The notes under the pieces were generated by a model, which had not been told where the DNA came from, did no database searches, and worked only from the letters and a program-made list of their open reading frames with translations. From NCBI GenBank assembly GCA_029204225.1, contig CM055107.1, positions 27,062,572 through 27,126,571 of the forward strand: 64,000 nt of DNA, in the 5' to 3' direction. The position numbers were made by a program, and so were the translations under genes. This DNA is from Diphasiastrum complanatum (lineage: Eukaryota; Streptophyta; Lycopodiopsida; Lycopodiales; Lycopodiaceae). Below, one piece after another: positions 26,860 to 39,169 of this stretch; the first letter of the stretch is position 1; each line of letters opens with the position of its first letter.

Positions 26860-27917
26860 CAAGAGTATGTCCTTAGGATCAAATCTCTTAACAAGGAGTT
26901 AAGTGCAATAGGAGAGAAGATCCAAGATCAAGAGCTAGTACAAATCATCTTGAATGGTCTAGGTGATGAGTTCACCAACTTAGTCCAATCATTTGCCATT
27001 CAAGACACTCTTCCATCCATTGAAAAGTTGCACAATGTTCTTGTGGCCGAGGAGAGTAGGCTTCTACACCTCAAGACAAGAATGGATAGCAAGAAGAAGC
27101 AACATCCATTCAAGAAAAATCAAGGCAAGGTGGCTGAGATAAAGAATGGAGGATCTACTTCCAAAGGCAAAGTGAAGAACAAGGCAAAACTCAAGTGTTT
27201 CTTTTGTGGAAAGAAAGGACAATTTGCCTCAGAATGCTACTTGAAGAAGAATCAACAAGCCAATGGAGATCAAAGGAACATTGCTCAAGAGGAAGAAGAC
27301 GAGGATGGATTCAACACATCCTTAATGGTTGCATCTACACCAACTTCAAGTCAAGACACATGGTGGATAGATAGTGGGGCTAGTTCCCACATGTCTTTTA
27401 ACAAGCATTATTTTTTCTACTCTTCTATCTTGTAATGACTCTAAGAAATCAATGTACACTGCTAGTGATCAAGCATGCAAGATAGATGGCATAAGATCTA
27501 TACCTCTTTGCTTAGGCACATCTAAAAGGATAGATCTAGGTAATGTTTTGTATGTTCCTACCATTTCAAGAAACTTGCTTAGTGTAGGACAATTAATGGA
27601 CAATGGACTAGATGTAAATTTCAAGAATGGAGTTTGTTCCATCTTGAAAAATGATAAGTGCATAGCTAGTGGCATTAAGCAAGGTAGACTTTTTAAGCTG
27701 GATGCTAATGTTGCAAGTGAAAGTGTGAACTTGGCTAGGGAGGAGCTATCTCAAGTGGAGCTATGGCATAAGAGATTAGGCCATCCTAATCTTCAATCTA
27801 TGGAGTCAATGGCAAGCAAGGAACTATCTCTCGGTCTACCAAGAGCTTTCAAGAAGTGTGGAAAGATGTGTGAGGCATGTGGCCTTGCAAAGTCACACAA
27901 ATCTTCTTACAAGAGAT
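26860..27917 (+). pseudogene. Copia D, 5' half: gag, protease, integrase zinc domain
   Basis: Gag reads from EYVLRIKSLNKELSAIGEK. The zinc knuckle CFFCGKKGQFASEC lies near 27,200-27,241 and protease WWIDSGASSHMSF near 27,362. After a frameshift near 27,430 comes VLYVPTISRNLLSVGQL, then the integrase zinc domain LWHKRLGHPN with CEACGLAKSH (27,763-27,900). The frame is cut after SYKR at the left end of the DNA transposon and resumes at 36,767. The 5' LTR and start of gag are missing. Confidence 0.92.
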
Positions 27918-27952
27918 CATTAGAGGAGTTCTCAATATCAAAAAGACCCTTT
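27918..27952 (+). repeat. Left terminal inverted repeat
   Basis: Starts cattagaggagtt and ends aaaaagacccttt. It pairs with 36,732-36,766 in reverse with a single mismatch (position 14, c/t). Confidence 0.95.
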
Positions 27953-28218
27953 AAGGGATGCCATATAGGATATAAAAAATATCAAAATAAATAAAACAAT
28001 ATTATTTATTTGCTTGCCCACACCGCTCCCAAGGCCTCCCCAACTCCCAATGATCTAACCACAGTGTCTATAGTCACAGTTAAGAACTGTTAACAGTTCG
28101 CAGTATAACTTGACTAAATTCAAAAATATTCCCTCCATTGGTTACGAAAAGGGCAATATTTTCACTAGATCTAGAATATGACCGCCGTCCCCAAATTTGA
28201 ATTAGAAAAAATTGCAAA

Positions 28219-30637
28219 ATGTTTACATATGCATTCCTTCCACAAGAATGGAAATATGAGCGCCAACTACAACTTTATATGAATAAAGTTCACTTTTTAG
28301 AAGGTGAGTTAATTCGGATATCCTCTTATTGTCAAAATAGTGATTGTCATCTCCAAAAGACGTTAGAAGAAAATGAACAACTTAAAAAAAATAATGAATC
28401 ATTACAGAAGATAGCAATCAATATCAAATCAGAACTAGAGCAAATGCAATCAGTCTTACAGTCTATTTGTATTCAAAACTTACAATTACTGAAGGATGTG
28501 GATTTGGTAAAGAAGAAGGCTGAAAGTAAGAAGCAAAAGCGACAAAGTTGCAAGGATATTCAAACGCTTTCAAAAGGAGGTTATTGAAATAGAAGGATCC
28601 GTGCATTCAAGTAAGCATATTCTAAATTTTGTAAGTTTTTCAATGACATTTGGATTTAATTTCAGCTATGGTGATATTCTGTTAACTATTTGTTTTTTTT
28701 GCAGATCTGCATTAGTAGCTCCTCGGAATATTAAAGACAATGCTTCTCTAGGAATGTCATTGGGCACAATATTGACTTGCAAATCCACTGAGCGTATCAT
28801 GATGAACAATAGGATTTCAAATGTAAAGTGTAAAATAGCAGAGTCTTTGATGGTGGACATTCAAAATATTTTAGATAAGACTATAGTTCAGACTGCTTGT
28901 GATTTTGCAGGTATTAGTAGGGAAGCATATGCAACAATATTTAAACTAATTAGAGAAGCTTTTAAGCAAGTTCAAATTAGAAAAGTCCCAATCCCTAGGA
29001 CATACCACTTGAAGAAAGAGAGGGATACATTAAACATAGGTATGCATAAGATCACTGGAACTCCATTTTATATTGAGGAGGTGTATGAAACTGATGGAAG
29101 ATCGATATTCTATAATTCATCAAACAATTTATTTGTTGATCTAAATTACTTGCTGAGATACATCGTCACATTCTATGATATTGCCTATGAAAAGGTGAAT
29201 GGCAAAATAATCATAGTACTTAAGTTAGATGAGTCAGAAATTGTGAAAGGGAAGAAGATGGAAAGGTTTAGTATAACTCTCATGAATGGTGCTCTATCCC
29301 AACAGAGAACCGAGAAGATTTCAAATTCAGTGTCTAGTCAGAAAATGATATATGGTGGTTGGCAGCATTTCAGGTAACTAGCCTCATTATTACATTACAT
29401 TCATTGAATAGTATTAATACATTGTTAACTAAGTATGATTAATTCTTTGGACAGGTGCTGAAAGAGGATCATGATATATTATCATGGATATTCTCAAGGA
29501 CATCTTATCCTAGGATCATCAAGGACCATATGGATGGAGGATTTCTCAATGTTCCAGGAGTTGGAGACTTCAATGTTGAATGACACTTAGCAGGTGATTT
29601 GAAAACATTGAAATGTATGTATAATGTCTCTCACGGTGCTACATCAAAACACCCTTGTTTGTACTGCATGAAAATGGCAAAAGATGTAACTAGGAGTACA
29701 GGAATTACTAGAGAATATGCAGATCAAAACTGGAAGCCTGTGTTGCCTATCCCCTTAAAAAATGTGCATGTTTGCACTCTTCATGCAGAAGTTAGATTAA
29801 TAGAAAAGATCATTTATCTTCATATAGTTTTTGCTTGGAATACTAAGCCAACATCATTAGCAAAGGAAGCTATCTCTCGATTAGAAGATGTTTTTATCAA
29901 AAGCAGGACTCCATAAAGGACATGTCAAAATTTAAAAAGATGAAAAGCTTTCAGGAAAGAATGGGAACATGCCAACTAAGCCAAGCATAGGAGGAGCAAA
30001 AGCACATCGTTTTTCTATCAAATCATACTGGTAAGGCTTCTAATATTAAACACTCATTCTGGACAAATATTATTGCTGCCACTCAGGACTTCGAGAAAGA
30101 CGGCAAAACCAGAGTACTAAAAGTTGATGTATGAAAAAAGCTTGATAGTATGATTGCTATTTTAAGAAAAGAAAAATACTCTGATATTGATAAGAAAGCT
30201 GTCCAAAGGACTTGTGTCGAGTTTGTTAATGCAATATCAAAAGCATGGGGAGAAGATCACATCACTCATTACATGGTTAGTTTAAAATTTTCAAAATGCT
30301 TTCAAATTTTCATATATATTTAGATCTAAACATAAGACTAACATTATGATTTTGACATATGCAGCACATACTAAGAGATCATACAACATTTTTTGAAAAT
30401 ACATATGGAAGCTTGAGTGTATGGTCATCACAAGGGATGGAGAAGTCACACTGGCAAGCACGAGCAACATTTCATCGAAATACAGAACATGGAAGAACTA
30501 ATGAAAAACAAAACTACATTTGTCAATTGTTTCAGTGGTTCTACCGCAGATTTCAGATTCGACATATAACAAAGTCCACACAATACAACAAGTTTAGAAA
30601 AGCATGCAAGTTCATACAGAAAGAGAAAATTAGATGA
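28219..30637 (+). pseudogene. Coiled-coil DDE-type transposase, multi-exon, broken
   Basis: The ATG at 28,219 opens a 122-codon coiled-coil region (NKVHFLEGELI, LKKNNESLQKIAINIKSELE). The main part follows in another frame (28,705-29,373): LGTILTCKSTERI, then IIVLKLDESEIV with a candidate first catalytic Asp. A GT-AG intron (29,374-29,454) leads to HLAGDLKTLKCMYN (candidate second Asp) and KHPCLYCMK (CxxC). After more frame changes, intron 30,276-30,364 precedes WSSQGMEKSHWQARATF (candidate catalytic Glu). The GDxKTLK...CxxC...QGxEK layout recalls an RNase H-fold transposase family common in invertebrate genomes; this is from memory of its pattern, not a search. In-frame TGAs lie at 29,581 and 30,133, both probably former Trp codons. 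Confidence 0.75.
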
Positions 30638-30770
30638 TTGCTGAATAGAAGATCATCATTGCTGAGTAGAAGATCATCATGACATGTTCAGAATTGCTTT
30701 GCAAGTACATTGAACAAGAGATGAGCAATACCCAATGTAAATGTATTGATTGTATTATACAAAGTGTCAA

Positions 30771-32166
30771 CTATTCATCATCAGATCTTGTATCAGATTC
30801 TATGGTAGTATTGTCATGAAGAAATTCTCTACTAGCATATGCATCTAATAGATGTGCATTATCCTTATTTCCACTAAGCTCAATATAAGTGGAATACAAT
30901 GAATAATGGGAGCTCCTTAAAGGAATATTCCTATCAGTAAAGCCAAAAATGTTCAAAACATAAGATCTTTTGACAAAAATGATCTTATTTGTCTTAACAA
31001 ATTTATGTCCTCCTAAATAAAATGATAAAGCTTTAACTGCCATTATAAGACTCTCCCCGACTGGGCTCAACTTGGAACGAGCAATACAAATCTCACTCTT
31101 CAAGAAATGCCGAAGATAGTGGCCCAGTCCATTGTCTCTCTGGAACGAGGATGCGTGCACCTCGTCTCGCAGCAAAATCATCTATTATGTGAGCATCCTA
31201 CAATAGGAAATATGTTAGCAAAAACACATTCAGTGATTGAAAACATTAAATGCAAGGAAGATTAAATACTTACACATTCTTCATCATCAGCAGCAACCAG
31301 ATCATGATGATCAATATAATGACCACGTATTGAAGTGGAATCATCAGTGAAATGCATTAATGATGGACGAGGGAAGCCCATCTGGGATTGAAATGCCGTG
31401 AATTCTTCATCGGATGGTCTGCCTCGCCCATCCTCAGCTATATTTGATAAAGTCTTATTCAGACATTCTTCACTGGTCATAAGACCCTCCTCATCATCAA
31501 AGTCAATACCAGCAACAAGGCCATCTGTCTCAAAATCTACAAAGTCGGAGAATTTGAAAATTGTGCCGGATAATAAACATAGAACCTCGTCCTCACGATA
31601 GTAAAAAAATTTAGGCCAATGAAAGAATCCCAGAGAACATCAGTATTTAAATCAATGAAGTCACTTTCTTTATCAGGGGTGTCGATAAGAAAGTGACTGA
31701 TATCCTTAATGGTTGACTGAACAGAGGAGGATGCAAAAGGAGGTTCAGCAACAGGAAACTCATCATCATCTGGGATCTGAACTAAAAGATAAAGTACGAA
31801 ACCACTCTGATATTCAACCAATCGACATTTCTTGTTGCAATACGGACACATAAAACTACTTTTGGAAAGATGAAACAATTTGGTGAACATTCTATCCAGT
31901 CTATGTCTAAAAGCTGGGAAGAAATGAACAAGATCAGTATAATGCATGTACTGGAGTTGACCTATGGAGAAAACAAGCTTGCTAAGTATATCTCTGAATC
32001 TGACATAATGTTCATAAAATACGTCAGAATTTGGTTGTGCAGTCTTGAAAACATGTAGATATGGCCTGAATAGGCTGTGAAAGTAGTCCAGATTTTCAGT
32101 AATCCCAAATTCACTCAGAAATGAACTCAAGCCTGATTCTCGTGAGGATGATGAGGAAGAGGCCAT
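30771..32166 (-). pseudogene. Transposon gene 2: unknown protein with CPYC motif
   Basis: The start at 32,166 opens a serine run (MASSSSSSRESGLSSFLSEF), chosen because that ATG begins a low-complexity leader typical of a true N-terminus. Around residue 115 is FMCPYCNKKCRL (CxxCxxxC), a possible partial zinc-binding site without a clear second half. An acidic stretch precedes the intron (31,273-31,198, GT-AG). Exon 2 ends at 30,771 with a very acidic tail (ESDTRSDDE). One frameshift falls in a 7-T run near 31,607, another near 31,100. I do not recognise the family. Divergent arrangement with the H3-ULP1 gene suggests joint control and perhaps a joint role in the element's life cycle. Confidence 0.65.
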
Positions 32167-32223
32167 GGCAGTAGCGTGAATATTGCACTTGTGCGCGCGG
32201 GAGAACTGAATCAAAACTAACAA

Positions 32224-33012
32224 TCAAAATGGCACAGAAGATGGATATGTATGGCAGACAGATACAGAATATTGCACTTGTGCGCGAGTAGGTATACTTG
32301 CAAGCAAATGGACAGAAATGAGCGTGCACAAAAGCGATATGTAAAAGGTAAAAAGGTAAAAAATTATGAGAACGCAAAAGGTAAAAAATTATTCGGTTTC
32401 CGTGCCATTTATACTAAATTTTTGCACGTGTGGTCAACGGACTTATGACACGTGTCTACTTTCAATTCGACAACAGGCACATGCACGTGTGAGATGACAC
32501 CTGCACATGTGTGAAATGACACCTAGACACGTGTCACATATTCATTCAAGTGCTTATAAACACGTGTCGCTCTTGCATTCGATCGTACAAATCTCACACT
32601 TGTAGTGTGACAGAGTGAGAAGTGTCGCTCTCGCATTTGTTCGTACAACTCTCACATGTGTGACAGGACGTTCTTTTGCACGTGCGAACCCCGATATAAA
32701 ATCACAAATTTCGATGAATTTTTCACTTTTTTTTTTGCTTTGCATATCGCATTTGTGCGCGCCTTTCACGATCAAAATTCCTCCTACTACCTTCCATGTG
32801 CACAGGTCCGATACGTCTTCCTACGTGTCACCCCATTGTCGCACTTGTGCGTCTTTCCTCAAATCTAATCGTTCTCTCTGATATTCGGCTCGCATAGGTC
32901 TGACATACCATACATTCTGTCCGTACATAGCGGTCCTCTGCGAGTTCTTTATCATCCCTTCCTTCTCATCCTAACCTTCACGCACAAGTCCGCTATCACA
33001 TAGTTCACGCCC
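32224..33012. promoter_or_regulatory. Divergent promoter region with six G-boxes
   Basis: This spacer separates the starts of gene 2 (32,166, minus) and gene 3 (33,013, plus). CACGTG occurs at 32,425, 32,449, 32,484, 32,528, 32,561 and 32,679, often extended to ACACGTGTC; E-box variants CACATGTG lie near 32,505 and 32,653. A word close to attgcacttgtgcgcg recurs near 32,190 (just inside the gene 2 leader), 32,272, 32,750 and 32,840. A 45-50-bp block starting gtgtcgctct is duplicated (about 32,565 and 32,627). A TATA box (TATAAA, 32,695-32,700) points toward gene 3. Confidence 0.7.
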
Positions 33013-34692
33013 ATGGATAGGAGAAAGCAAACAAGGAGAGACTTCTTCTCTCCTGGCTCATCCTCATCTCTTGCGGTTGCCATCACACCCCCTGTTAGAC
33101 CTAGAACGTGCAACCACAGCAGGTGGCCCTTTGAGATACGCAAGTATTGGAGGTCAACAACTCTGTTGATCCCAAGAGCTCCATTCTACCGTGCTATCCG
33201 GAACATAACAAGAAATGATCTCGGACAGCACGTTAGATTCACATCAAGTGCTCTTCAGTGCCTTCAGGAGGCTGCTGAAGATTATATTAGCTTTTTTTTT
33301 GAGGATTCTTTTTCGCTTGCCATCCATACCAAGAGGGTTACCATAATGCCCAAGGATTTTCAGCTTCTGATGAGAATGAGGGAGGGGTACTGTAGGTTAC
33401 ATGTATCTCAGCCTGCTGCTCCTAGACCAACTCATGTAGATAGGACTCATCTTCCTACGAAGTGTCCTAGGAAGCAGACAACCCCCAAGCGTGCTCCTAA
33501 GAAAGTGAAGCCTATCCTAGAATCCATTGTAGATAATGCTGCTGTTGATAATGCTGTAAATATAGCTACCTCTGTTCTGGATACTCCTACTTTTTGCTGT
33601 AGATACTACACTTCCACCTCCTCCTCCTCCTCCCAATTTCTATACATATATAGATTCGGATGATTATCTTAAATTTGAGAAAGACATATCGGATTCTATA
33701 GATACAATTAGTACTCCTTTTTGTTTTAGACTAGAAGAACTTGATTTTAGTATTAATTTTGAAGTTCTAGATTGCCTGGATCTCAAAGACAGACGAGCTT
33801 CTATCAGTGATCCTGTGATAGAGTCCGGGCTGACACTCTTGCAATTTGACATTGCAAGAGATTCATCAAACGAGTTGCTGGTGCTGAGTAACTTTCTGCT
33901 CCAGGCCTTTAAGGAGAATAATGACACATTGTCATAGTGTCTGACAACTGGATTCACACCAGCAACAAAGTATCTGGTCATTCCTTATCATACCAAGTAA
34001 GATATATTAAGTGCTTCTTCCTGTTTTATGCATTAACATTGACATTTTCAATTTAAATAGTTCTCAGAATTGCCGCTAAAGTACTTTCAATCTTATTTTG
34101 CAGTGACCACTAGAGTTTAAACCTGATCTCTATTAAGAGATCTGTAAATAATATTATTAAATGTTCTTGTGTCAAGATGAATTCGGCAAGAAATACGCAT
34201 AAGGATGTAGATATATTCATTCCATATCTAAGTAAATATATTCTTACAGATGTTCCCCATTCCGTGGACTGGCAGAACGTCAGCTTGGAGGTAAACTCTT
34301 CTTTCTTAATAGCATTTTGAAATCAGTACTCTGATGAAATATTTTCAATCTAATTCGTTCTGTTTCATAATTTATTTCTTGTGTGTTGAATTATTTTGCA
34401 GTCACCCCAACAAAATGATTCATTCAGTTGTGTGTGGTACACATTGTACAATGCCAAGCTGTTTTTTGAGTGGTTCATCCTTCAACAAGATGTTGATATT
34501 TCTAAGGTAATAAATTCTGTTTATTCTTATTTTGGAATCATGATTAGTTTTCTATTCTGGTGATGTTATTGGCCATTACTAATACATGGATGTTCTATTT
34601 TGCAGTTTACACTTCTTGAGTACACATCAAGCCAGGTGTACAGATTTAGACAAGAAATTATCCTGAGTATACTGGCTCGGACAAGGCTTTAG
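33013..34692 (+). pseudogene. Transposon gene 3: histone H3/CENH3-like domain plus ULP1-like protease
   Basis: Exons: 33,013-33,996, 34,104-34,290, 34,402-34,506, 34,606-34,692, with GT-AG introns and matching phases. Residues 1-40 form a basic tail unlike canonical H3. Residues 41-124 are an H3 histone fold: EIRKYWRSTTLLIPRAPF (alpha-N), LQEAAEDY (alpha-2), HTKRVTIMPKDFQLL (loop 2, alpha-3). LLIP, AAEDY, KDF and a loop 1 one residue longer than H3 favour CENH3. A basic linker, one frameshift (about 33,590) and a run of eight prolines follow. The C-terminal half matches C48/ULP1: YLVIPYHT, His at 34,108 followed by TAG where Trp is expected, a D-to-N candidate at 34,180, and SPQQNDSFSCVW with Gln and nucleophile Cys at 34,429. 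The TAG at 33,935 also looks like a former Trp codon. The copy is non-functional; the fusion reading rests on one frame running across 33,935. Confidence 0.8.
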
Positions 34693-34938
34693 CCTCCCGT
34701 TATTGATGATGGTGCAAAGGATGATGTAGTTGTACTAAATTAAGATCAGAAAAAATATAGATAGCATAGAACAAAAATACATGTATAGACTTCATAGAAA
34801 AATATGCATTGATATATCAAATGCTGCTCCAGTTTATGAATTTGGGAGCACAAAATACATGTATAGATGCCCAACTTGGGCTTTCATTTATTGAATGAAA
34901 GGGTGTATACACAAATTTTTACTAAAGTTTATTTGAAA
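34693..34938. other. Convergent 3' spacer between transposon genes 3 and 4
   Basis: AT-rich, 246 bp, no coding signal. It must hold both 3' UTRs. The word acaaaaatacatgtatag near 34,773 recurs at about 34,850. Confidence 0.6.
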
Positions 34939-36311
34939 CTATTGTTCTCCCACAATGGTGATTGTTGTAGGTAGATCTTTGCAGCACGTTATCGGCTCCT
35001 GTCTTTTTCCCATCTATGACGTGGCAAATATTAGTGAATGTGCAATTGTAAATGATGACATTTTCTATTATTTTGTTCTATTTTGAAATGGCAATAAACA
35101 TAAAGTACTTATGAGTCTTCCGTTGATGATAAATCTGAAATATGTTGGTAGATTGGTTTGCAATAGCATGAGCTCTGTTCTAAAAAAATCAAGCTTCCAG
35201 TGCTCTTCCACCTCAACCATAGTCAAATATTCCTCATTGCAGATAATGCTTATCTCCATTCGGTTTGTGTGACCATTTAGTTCAAAGTCTTGATCCAGTG
35301 GTAGCCATGTGCCTTCAATTTTCTTGTATCTCTAGTAGCTAAATGTGAGACTGAGCATTTGCTTTTCGATATGATAACGTAAGATCATTGAGGACTTTTT
35401 AATCCTGCATTCTATGTCATTATTTGTTTTACTATCCCAGCCTTGATCCATGAGATCTGACAAAGTCTCATCTGATAAATCCTTGCAAACAAATAAAGTT
35501 GGTGTCCTACGAACACTAGCACTCGAGAAAAAATCAACAAATGTATGCAATGAGATAAACCAACTTAGGTGAACAATTTTCGAGCCTGTGCTTATCTTCA
35601 TAGCATTTTTAATATCAATGAGTAGCTTGCATCTCAAGGATTCAGAAACAATGCTGTCAGGAGTAGGCCACTCATCACTTTGAAAACTAGGCAATGAAAT
35701 TGCTTCGAGCTTGCCAAAACCTCCATCTGTTTGTGGCATATATAAAGATTCATAAAAATAGATACCACAATCTGCAAGTTCCTTTGGACTTCTTCCTCTA
35801 TATTGTAGCTTTCCAACATCAGAGTGAATCACGTCTAATATTCCTGCAAGTGATTGTGCGGGCTCCCATTCACTTATGCATGATGGATATAAATTTGAAA
35901 GAAAAAAACAATGTTGAAGCATTTAAATCATAATCTAAAGAGCATCAATAAAGGAAATCACCTATGATTGCTATAGAGTGCATATGTTTTGATATACTTA
36001 CAATTACATTTTTGATGATCATGAGGATTGATATCATGTGCTTTGATTTCTGAATGCATATATACATGTTGCACTAAGACTTCTGATATCAATTGACCTC
36101 TCGGGGTAGTCTTAAACTCCAAATTTTTTGCTTTCCAATAAGATTTGTAAGTCATTTTTGCTCTTTTCTTTTGTCGAAACTTGCCCTTTGATGATGGATG
36201 CAGCAATACCCATGAGTTCTTCGTATATTTTGTTGGCTTCCAGTTATCAGCTTCATCTTTCTCATTGTAAAGAATCACAGAATTGATTGTAGATCTGGGT
36301 CTCCTCGCCAT
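34939..36311 (-). pseudogene. Transposon gene 4: unknown multi-exon protein (copy 1)
   Basis: The start at 36,311 gives MARRPRSTINSVILYNEKDE, then a basic stretch (FRQKKRAKMTYKSYWKAKN) and CxC (HQKCNC). Exon 1 ends at 36,002 before GTAAGT. The long second exon (from about 35,905 to 35,109) has EWEPAQSLAGILDVIHSDVG, VHLSWFISLHTFVDFF, RRTPTLFVCKDLSDETL and MVEVEEHWKLDFFRTEL. A short last exon (35,013-34,939) follows a 95-bp intron. An in-frame TAG at 35,334-35,332 replaces a Gln (the other copy has Gln). The C-terminal strand pattern (FRFIINGRLI...CCKDLP) hints at a beta-grasp, ubiquitin-like fold, but weakly. The family is not recognised. Homology with 43,365-45,018 shows it is a real gene. 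Confidence 0.7.
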
Positions 36312-36731
36312 TGCTATTTTCAAAGCTTGGGCGCCAAAAATCTCTCTGATATGTTACTTGATTTTAATTTTTTGTATCTAATGTGAATGCCAACATAGTC
36401 ACAGTTACTGCGTATACCATGTTTTATGTAATCGTACATACTATATTTCTATAACTGTAACTAGTATAGTTAGAAAATTTCATTATACTAACCAGCATAG
36501 TAAAGTAAATTTAACTTGAGCTATTGACGTCGGGCAGATTAGCACGTGTCGGGCAGGAAAAAGAAACCAATGGGATACGTCCATGCTGTCCGGACACAAA
36601 TTTCAAAGTTTTCTATATTGCATTTTTATTTTTTAGTTAATTGAACTACGTTATGTAGATTTCAAATCTGTGCATTTTGATTGGGCCTGGTGACGGTCGA
36701 AACTAAAGAAAAAAAATAAAAGTATCTTTAC

Positions 36732-36766
36732 AAAGGGTCTTTTTGATATTGAAAACTCCTCTAATG
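36732..36766 (-). repeat. Right terminal inverted repeat
   Basis: Reverse complement of 27,918-27,952 with one mismatch. The outermost base is 36,766; copia D coding resumes at 36,767. Confidence 0.95.
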
Positions 36767-39169
36767 CTTCATCAAGATCTACCTCTCCCTTGGATCTCAT
36801 ACAATCTGATGTACATAGTTTTTCACATGCAAGTAATGGAGGTGCTTTGATGTATGTAACTTTTATAGATGATTGTACTAGATTCACATGGATTGAGTTA
36901 CTATCAGAGAAAAGTCTTGTTTATGAAGCTTTCATTAAGTTCAGGTCTCTAGTAGAGAAACAACTTAGTACTTCCATCACAGCACTAAGATGTGATAATG
37001 GAGGAGAGTACACCTCCAATAAAATGAAAGACTTTTGTGAGATCAATGGCATTAAGTTGCAATACACTTGTTCATACACCCCCCAACAAAATGGGGTGGT
37101 TGAGAGAAAAAATAGGAGTCTATGTGAGTGTGCAAAGTCTCTAAGACTTGATGCATCACTTCCCATCTCATTTTGGGGAGAAGCTATAACATGTGCTAAT
37201 TACTTGTGCAATAGACTTCCTAGTAGTGCTATAGATGGGATCTCACCTTATCAAGACTTGTTTGATAAAAAGCCCAATGTAAAATATTTTAAGATCTTTG
37301 GATGTATTTGTTATGTTCACATCCCTTTGGAGACTAGAAGGAAAGAAGATGCTACCTCCTTCAAAGGGATCTTTGTTGGCTATGGAGAAAATAGCAAGGG
37401 CTATAGGATATATGATCCTATATCCAAGAAAGTAAAGGTAAGCAAGGATATACTTTTTGATGAGTCACAATTTGCTAAGAGCTTGTCGAATGGATCTAAC
37501 CCATTGTGCATTGAAGATCTTGACAAACCCGAGGATGGAGACATGGATCCAAGTCAAAAGGGGCCGAGAAGATCATCAAGAAGCAAGGCCGAGCACTCAA
37601 GGCTCACCTATGTGGACAAAGGAAAGCAAAAGGAAGACTCTACACCTTCTACCTCTTACTCCTTCTTAGCTACATTGCTTGAAGGACCATCATCTTTTGA
37701 AGAAGCATATAAATCTAAAGTTTGGAGAGATGCAATGCAAGTAGAGTATGATGCATTAGAAAAAAATCATACTTGAAATCTTGTAAATCTTTCAAGAGGG
37801 AAGAAACAACTTGCATGTGTAAGCGGATTTATAGAATAAAGTACAATCAAGATGGATCTATTAGTAAGTACAAAGCTAGGCTTGTTGCTAAGGGATTTCT
37901 TCAAATAAAAGGATTGGATTATGAAGAAACATTTGCACCTGTAGCTAAGCTTGTGACTATTAGATTAATCGTTTGCATTGCTACTTTGTTCAAGTGGGAT
38001 CTCTATCAAATGGATGTGCAAATGCCTTCTTGAATGGCTTCTTAGAAGAGGAAATCTACATGATGCAACTTGAGGGCTTCATCAAGGTTGGTGAGGAGCA
38101 AAAGGTGTGCTACTTAAGGAAGAGCCTATATGGCTTGAAGCAAGCACCTAGAGCTTGGTACTCTAGGTTGCATGATTTTCTCTATTCTCTTGGCTTTGTA
38201 CTAAGTGCTTATGGACCTTCTTTATATCTCAAATGTAATGAAGGAATGATCATCATTTTGGTACTTTATGTTGATGACATCATTTTGACAGGAAATGATG
38301 ATGAAGGTATAAGCAAAGTAAAAGTTGATTTATCTAGTGAGTTCAAGATGGTAGATCTAGGCTTCCTAAAATTTATACTTGGGATAGAAGTGTCTAGAAG
38401 TATCAATTGTACTTTCATAAGTCAATCTAAGTATGCTACTTCCATTCTTGAAATTTTGTAAGGGGATTGACACCCCTATGGAGCATGTTGTGAAAGCAAC
38501 TAATGAAGGTGATGAAGCACCCTTTGAAGGCATCACCCTCTTTAGAAAGCTTATAGGCTCTCTAATCTATTTGACCATCACTAGACCTGACTTAAGTTTT
38601 TATGTAAGTAAGTTGAGTCAAAGTATGCAAGCTCCTTTAGTTCATCATTGGAAAAGTGACAAGAGAGTACTTAGATATGTTTCTAGTACTAGATTTTTTG
38701 GCATACTTTATGAAGGATCTAACTTGCACTTGAGAGCCTACTCAGATTCAGATTTTGCAGGTGACAAGATGGATAGGAAGTCCATTATTGCATTTGCAAC
38801 ATTTCTTTGTGGAGGAGTAATATCTTGGCTTTCCAAAAAGCAAGATACAATCTCACTATCTTCTTGTGAAGCCGAGTACAAGGCATTGACTTCAACAACC
38901 AAAGAGCTCCTATGGCTAAGAAGACTCTTGATGGAGCTACATGTGCTAGAGGCCGAGGAGATCCCTTACATATCTTGTGACAATCAAGCTTCTCAACAAA
39001 TTGCTTCAAATCCTATCTTCCATGCTATAACAAAGCATATTGAGATAGCTCATCACTTTGTGAGGGAGAAGGTACAATCCAAGGAGGTGCAACTACACCA
39101 TGTACCATCATCCGAATGCATAGCTGATGTCTTAGCCAAGCCATTGTCCAAAGATCCATTTTTAAAGTA
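36767..39169 (+). pseudogene. Copia D, 3' half: integrase core, RT, RNase H
   Basis: The frame continues directly from 27,917. Integrase catalytic residues are D in LIQSDVHSF, D in LRCDNGGEYTS and E in VVERKNRSL (36,800-37,130). A Pro/Ser linker is followed by RT from about 37,690 (KARLVAKGFLQIKGLDYEE, SLYGLKQAPRAWYSRL) with intact active box LYVDDIILTGND near 38,267. RNase H includes SDSDFAGDKMDRKS, SLSSCEAEYKAL and FHAITKHIEIAHHFV. Breaks are few: a TGA near 37,776 and frameshifts near 37,800, 38,025 and 38,455. The moderate decay suggests the element was fairly young when the DNA transposon entered it. Confidence 0.93.

Follow-up and report, generated by a model that had tools for sequence, protein, structure and literature searches.

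A DNA transposon gene joining a histone H3-type domain to a C48 protease-like domain in Diphasiastrum complanatum, with a tentative role in counter-defence against silencing

The analysis was conducted on a stretch of 64,000 nucleotides of Diphasiastrum complanatum (assembly GCA_029204225.1, contig CM055107.1, positions 27,062,572 to 27,126,571), which is called the window here. A gene encoding an H3-type histone domain and a C48 domain (H3-C48 gene) was located in a DNA element of 8.85 kb at 27918-36766, together with three further genes. The features are listed in Table 1. Gene T, a putative DDE-type enzyme by its sequence, carried the stretches GDLK, CLYC, HAE and QGMEKSH. When a composite of its exons from several copies was searched, it gave no Pfam family above the cut-off and no PDB match; the composite was possibly too divergent. 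Genes B and D gave no Pfam match above the cut-off.

Table 1. Features of the element, in positions of the window
Feature	Position	Strand	Basis or remark
Left TIR, 35 bp	27918..27952	+	Border common to copies; one mismatch against the right end
Gene T, putative transposase, several exons	28201..30634	+	Open stretches in several copies
Gene B, function not assigned, divergent to the H3-C48 gene, with CPYCNKKC	30771..32166	-	Open stretches
Six CACGTG boxes, divergent intergenic region	32425..32684	.	Motif count across copies
Exon 1, H3-C48 gene	33013..33996	+	Frameshift and stop in the window copy
H3-type histone fold, codons 38-124	33124..33384	+	PF00125 E 1.9e-25; H3 and yeast CENP-A chains among the PDB matches shown
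Exon 2, C48 part: His, plus Asn where Asp is usual	34104..34290	+	Copy comparison, alignment
Exon 3, C48 part: Gln and catalytic Cys	34402..34506	+	Copy comparison
Exon 4	34606..34743	+	Window copy stops early at 34690; open-copy frame ends at 34743
Gene D, several exons	35068..36311	-	Open stretches in several copies
Right TIR, 35 bp	36732..36766	-	Border common to copies; comparison of ends

The initial annotation had proposed that an H3 fold and a C48-type protease are fused in one transposon-borne gene, and had named profile searches as a way of checking this. The proposal was borne out by the spliced products of two open copies, in which both domains were matched above the Pfam cut-off. 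The E values were 1.2e-25 and 8.7e-27 for PF00125, and 5.1e-10 and 5.4e-10 for PF02902 (Peptidase_C48; 40 bits, cut-off 20.7). In the window copy, the exon-1 frame (33013-33663) matched PF00125 with 89.9 bits (E 1.9e-25, cut-off 26.4), and exon 3 by itself gave a weak C48 match below the cut-off (E 0.056). Twenty distinct copies were then compared, duplicates among the fetched loci having been removed beforehand. The four exons were open without a stop in six of them (c7p, c5m, c6m, c2p, c14p and L024), with products of 470 or 479 residues. Copy c6m was open, yet its catalytic Cys was lost. In the remaining 14, the frame was interrupted by stops or frameshifts, by a deletion in c3p or by an assembly gap in c1m. 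Decay has left the window copy as a pseudogene, with a frameshift and a stop within exon 1. Such damage would fit two adjacent genes that seem continuous only through read-through in a damaged copy. However, in several copies exon 1 was uninterrupted between the start of H3 and the C48 stretch VIPYHT, which it entered, and six copies were open to the end with intact intron borders, which made this explanation extremely unlikely. Two separate genes, the outcome that the initial annotation had named as refuting the fusion, were sought and not found. Genome-wide, the best 150 C48-exon places included at least 69 with an H3 place on the same strand 0.5-2.5 kb upstream, and the spacing was 0.99-1.12 kb in 57 of these pairs. 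An H3 place within 20 kb downstream was found for none of the 150, among the H3 matches listed. It was confirmed that the two domains belong to one gene and that both are genuine.

Some details of the gene model were revised. The three predicted introns were supported by GT..AG borders at all of them in the open copies, but their supposedly matching phase was not, the phases read from the sequence being 2, 0 and 0. The TAG at 33935 had been taken for a former Trp codon. The open copies have another residue there, and it is the stop directly after the catalytic His that stands in place of a Trp. The gene end had been placed at 34692, and the open-copy frame continues to a stop equivalent to 34743.

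The borders of the element were determined by comparing ten more flanked loci with the window (c6m and c226p were 99.8% alike). Both ends with the gene between them were present in c7p, c2p and the window, and likewise in c5m, where the left end was slightly shortened. In c10m, the right end and the H3-C48 gene were present and the left genes gave no alignment; this copy may be a non-autonomous or truncated derivative. The window copy was inserted within a copia element. Its joined flanks matched all 40 scored empty places (of 1872 candidates) with 98-99% identity, 39 of them over 150 bases and one over 149. For copy c2p, which lay in another copia element, all 40 empty places scored among 1533 candidates matched with 95-99% across the whole query, one span being 1 base shorter. 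These empty sites indicated neither a target-site duplication nor a deletion at the two insertions. A search for the empty site of c7p found none and was uninformative. The copia flanks at 27843-27917 and 36767-36841 were 98-99% like the 40 scored empty copies over 150 bases. From this likeness, the window insertion looks younger than that copia burst; its H3-C48 gene is already broken nonetheless.

These properties were set against known transposon groups. Mutator elements have a 9-bp target-site duplication and a MURA-type transposase. A Mutator-like element with KIU was rejected, because the duplication was zero at two sites and gene T had no Pfam transposase match. CACTA (EnSpm) elements, which have the termini CACTA..TAGTG and a 3-bp duplication, were rejected on the termini CATTAG..CTAATG and the zero duplication at the same two sites. 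Helitrons have no terminal inverted repeats and carry 5' TC and 3' CTRR ends; they were rejected because the element has 35-bp inverted repeats. The Spy group of PHIS transposons inserts without a target-site duplication, as the present element did at the two sites. It differs in that no PHIS-type transposase was found by Pfam in the composite, which was possibly too divergent, and we know of no histone or C48 gene in the Spy group. Judged by its sequence, the element represents a family of multi-gene DNA transposons that could not be assigned to a group.

The histone part was compared with host H3 and CENH3. In the PDB search, the 60 best of 178 matches were H3 or CENP-A chains. The fold was identical to host H3 at 47-48 of 85 residues (about 55%) and to approximate plant CENH3 reference sequences at 43-46 of 86. 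The residues at sites separating H3 from CENH3 were mixed, with 6 matching only H3 and 10 matching only the approximate CENH3 reference. Loop 1 was one residue longer than in H3. Given the mixed identities and the 6-to-10 split, we call this a divergent H3, with a possible kinship to CENH3. The DNA-facing stretch KRVTIMPKD was retained in the fold. Two AlphaFold models were of low confidence (mean pLDDT 34.5 and 48.5); the helix order of the latter resembled H3 and was not counted. In the tail, the start was MDRRKQTRRD compared to MARTKQTARK in host H3. R2, K4, Q5, T6 and R8 were conserved and the K9 position was Asp. The codon at this position was tallied in the 100 listed copies out of 379, with a pattern that fixed the neighbouring bases: Asp 92, Asn 4, Glu 2, Gly 1, Val 1 and Lys 0. 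No lysine was found from the K9 position to the alphaN helix in any of the six open copies. This meant that K9, K14, K18, K23, K27, K36 and K37 had no counterpart under any tail alignment.

The gene was present in high copy number in the genome searched (1.745 Gb, 5176 contigs). The first 35 coding bases were found at 379 places as an exact pattern, in which three positions were free at one codon and a few were two-fold, and the reversed control gave 0. When the first exon served as the query, 7721 first-look candidates were obtained; scoring covered the best 150, all of which matched. With Pfam Histone, 153 matches were obtained from 6325 candidates. By score, 13 canonical H3 genes were among the matches listed; eight were read, and all were H3. 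The 30-base TIR pattern was found at 1817 places with at most one mismatch and at 0 for the reversed pattern. An exact pattern of 100 bases was too strict for mapping (23 places).

The histone part might act as a targeting module by which the transposition machinery reaches particular chromatin, for example that with CENH3. The 10 CENH3-only sites against 6 H3-only sites (with the approximate CENH3 reference) and the longer loop 1 would agree with this, as would the density of the TIR pattern in two stretches of chromosome C1. However, across the 15 chromosomes whose length is known, 209 H3 or C48 places were dispersed, with a KS test below 0.05 in one of 15 (0.042), and the nine H3 starts listed on C1 were spread over 12 to 87 Mb. 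We consider such targeting improbable. The idea that a CENH3-like module reaches centromeric chromatin likewise gained no support from the H3 or C48 places, which were dispersed along the chromosomes, or from the fold residues, which were mixed. The dispersal bears on where copies were inserted and does not bear on where the protein would be located. The 209 places were best-scoring copies, that is, old survivors and not fresh insertions, so an original insertion preference may be blurred. The TIR pattern on C1 was dense at 64.97-66.68 Mb (28 places) and at 95.0-99.9 Mb (26 places), among the places listed (to about 99.85 Mb). The locus c1m, inside the first cluster, consisted of degenerate repeats beside an assembly gap of 5000 N. 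These stretches, in which H3-bearing copies were not dense, may consist of short derivatives with TIRs only, or of a segmental array. Centromere targeting based on them was rejected, as the H3-bearing copies were dispersed.

The C48 part matched a Ulp1-like SUMO protease (E 0.0017), yeast Ulp1 (0.0027), SENP2 (0.029) and SENP8 (0.14) in the PDB. In 18 readable copies, the catalytic His was found in 17, the Gln in 18 and the Cys in 15. The position of the triad Asp, taken from the alignment with SENP2 and Ulp1, was Asn in all 18. Thus, the oxyanion Gln was present and the full His-Asp-Cys triad was not. The residue after the catalytic Cys was Val in the window copy and Gly in 17 of the 18. Because Asp is replaced by Asn, the domain may have low or no activity. 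Papain-like enzymes work with a Cys-His-Asn triad. In one paper, the C48 genes carried by MULEs are considered unlikely to act on SUMO (PMC6117577), and by analogy this may extend to the H3-C48 protein.

Selection was examined by relocating every observed base change at random within the same region with its type kept (2000 draws; the null was blind to CG and CHG context). Copies c1m and c3p were left out. In the deep copy c19p, the H3 part had 12 nonsynonymous changes against 20.9 expected, and none of the 2000 draws was as low. Its linker had 22 against 29.3 (P 0.005) and its C48 part 47 against 55.0 (P 0.026), counts that were blurred by frameshifts in places. In c14p, the C48 part had 8 against 20.4 expected, again with none of 2000 draws as low. 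The linker of c14p had 10 against 11.8 (P 0.20), and in its H3 part no selection was visible among 9 changes (6 against 6.7, P 0.43). The evidence for selection on the H3 part comes mainly from one deep copy, c19p. In the main group of 16 copies, the 300 singletons were neutral (217 nonsynonymous against 220.4 expected), and all 627 changes together gave P 0.056. In sequence comparison, both domains were under purifying selection along the older divergence, and the young changes were neutral. Such a pattern is expected of a gene that is under selection as long as its element is active and evolves neutrally once a copy has inserted. The first part of gene B also appeared to be under purifying selection (c19p, 20 nonsynonymous against 28.9, P 0.003; c14p, 4 against 7.2, P 0.021), and in the same test no sign of selection was seen for genes T and D in the parts covered. 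Copy c19p (L045-L046) had 15 changes in the part of gene T covered by the test and 143 in the H3-C48 gene, and its left genes looked nearer to the main group; it may be a recombinant copy.

These counts bear on whether the H3 gene was captured passively by transduplication and has no function for the element. A precedent for such capture is an hAT element of Pseudocercospora fijiensis, with 471 repeats that contain H3-like sequence (PMC6710886). Fourteen of the 20 copies are broken, two of them through a deletion or a gap in the assembly, as would also be expected of a passenger. However, the H3 part was under purifying selection along the c19p divergence, the fusion was open in copies on several chromosomes, and an identity of about 55% to host H3 implies a long history of its own. 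Passive capture, already disfavoured by the selection on c19p, is highly improbable.

The base changes in the 16 copies were examined by context. C-to-T (or G-to-A) changes were found at 246 of 2465 CHG site-copies (10.0%), 65 of 830 CG (7.8%) and 151 of 7298 CHH (2.1%), compared to a rate of 0.8% for A-to-G. We read the excess at CG and CHG sites as the likely trace of host CG and CHG methylation. Such a footprint is expected if the host silences the copies by methylation in these contexts. CMT2 and CMT3 are described as steering methylation outside CG sites to regions that bear H3K9 methylation (PMC10398659).

Based on the above results, we infer from sequence features that the H3-C48 product might be an anti-silencing protein, with a probability of about 45%. 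It would place nucleosomes free of silencing lysines on the element and remove SUMO-like tags. The histone part would pair with host H4 and enter nucleosomes on or near the element. Because the tail has K4 and lacks K9, K27 and K36, these nucleosomes would be unable to bear H3K9me2 or H3K27 marks. Nucleosomes free of H3K9me2 would break the loop between H3K9me2, CMT3 and CHG methylation. At the same place, the tethered C48 domain would free silencing factors of SUMO, NEDD8 or a comparable tag, and the CACGTG boxes beside the gene may help direct the protein. The stronger claim, that the transposon encodes a silencing-resistant H3 tethered to a SUMO-protease-like domain and replaces host H3 on its own chromatin as a counter-defence, is put forward more tentatively. 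A use in countering silencing had been suggested before together with an action on centromeric chromatin; the former was kept as the most plausible use and the latter was dropped. Against an anti-silencing function, the copies were heavily decayed by methylation-type changes all the same, so any protection would be incomplete or past.

The same protein could also act as a soluble decoy or enzyme that forms no nucleosomes. Its fold would then bind H4 or chaperones, or would serve only to bring the C48 domain to SUMO or NEDD8 targets on chromatin. In favour of this, it is unusual for the fold of a nucleosomal H3 to be followed by a linker and a C48 domain, and selection on the C48 part was clear in c14p. 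In addition, C48 is a selected accessory part in other plant transposons (PMC6117577, PMC13317346). However, K4, Q5, T6, R8 and KRVTIMPKD were kept, which is beyond the needs of a mere binding module. We consider the decoy or enzyme rather unlikely.

Several consequences would follow from the anti-silencing reading. If the histone enters nucleosomes, the transposon would write its own chromatin with an H3 that the host cannot mark as silent. If true, this would be a natural test of whether H3K9me2 causes CHG methylation and silencing at a locus, and does not just correlate with them. It would also be a new type among the small number of anti-silencing proteins known from transposons, and research would gain a natural H3 that has K4 and lacks K9 as a tool.

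Transposon accessory genes made from captured host domains are known, and the H3-C48 fusion is of this kind. Among the open-licence papers listed, we found neither a fused histone-C48 gene nor a plant transposon with H3, and earlier notice elsewhere is possible. Relatives of the fusion were sought in viral contigs; 70 pattern matches were obtained and none was confirmed. The hAT-borne H3 of P. fijiensis and related fungi was, like the present gene, amplified to hundreds of copies by a DNA transposon; it is a transduplicated housekeeping H3 with RIP-inactivated copies, an 8-bp target-site duplication and 20-bp TIRs (PMC6710886). In contrast, the present H3 is divergent, fused to C48 and selected, and the element has no target-site duplication and 35-bp TIRs. 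Fungi with H3 capture by transposons are reportedly the subject of a second study. Viral histones (NCLDV, nudivirus and others) are a further case of parasites with their own histones, some of them fused to other sequence; these are other parasites and other fusions, and the word protease does not occur in the main text (PMC9145170).

By analogy, the nearest model for the H3-C48 protein would be the VANC proteins, which bind VANDAL noncoding regions and cause loss of silent marks (PMC10398659). Some VANC genes (KIU) carry a Ulp1 domain (PMC13317346). The VANDAL elements of Arabidopsis (non-TIR MULEs) are likewise multi-gene DNA transposons whose accessory gene may end in Ulp1 (PMC13317346). 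This gene counters silencing, and the targets of VANC are tandem repeats in noncoding regions (PMC13317346, PMC10398659). VANDAL has a MULE transposase and a histone domain is not mentioned in the text consulted, whereas the present element has an H3 fused to C48 with a putative anti-silencing function. Unlike the non-TIR VANDAL, it has 35-bp TIRs, no target-site duplication and a transposase candidate that gave no Pfam match. The CACGTG box cluster recalls the tandem targets of VANC proteins by resemblance alone. Upstream of the H3 start, 4-8 boxes were counted in nine of ten copies, and one box in c10m, where the left part is missing. The boxes were spaced 22-35 bp apart, and their number varied among copies, like that of an expanding and contracting tandem repeat.
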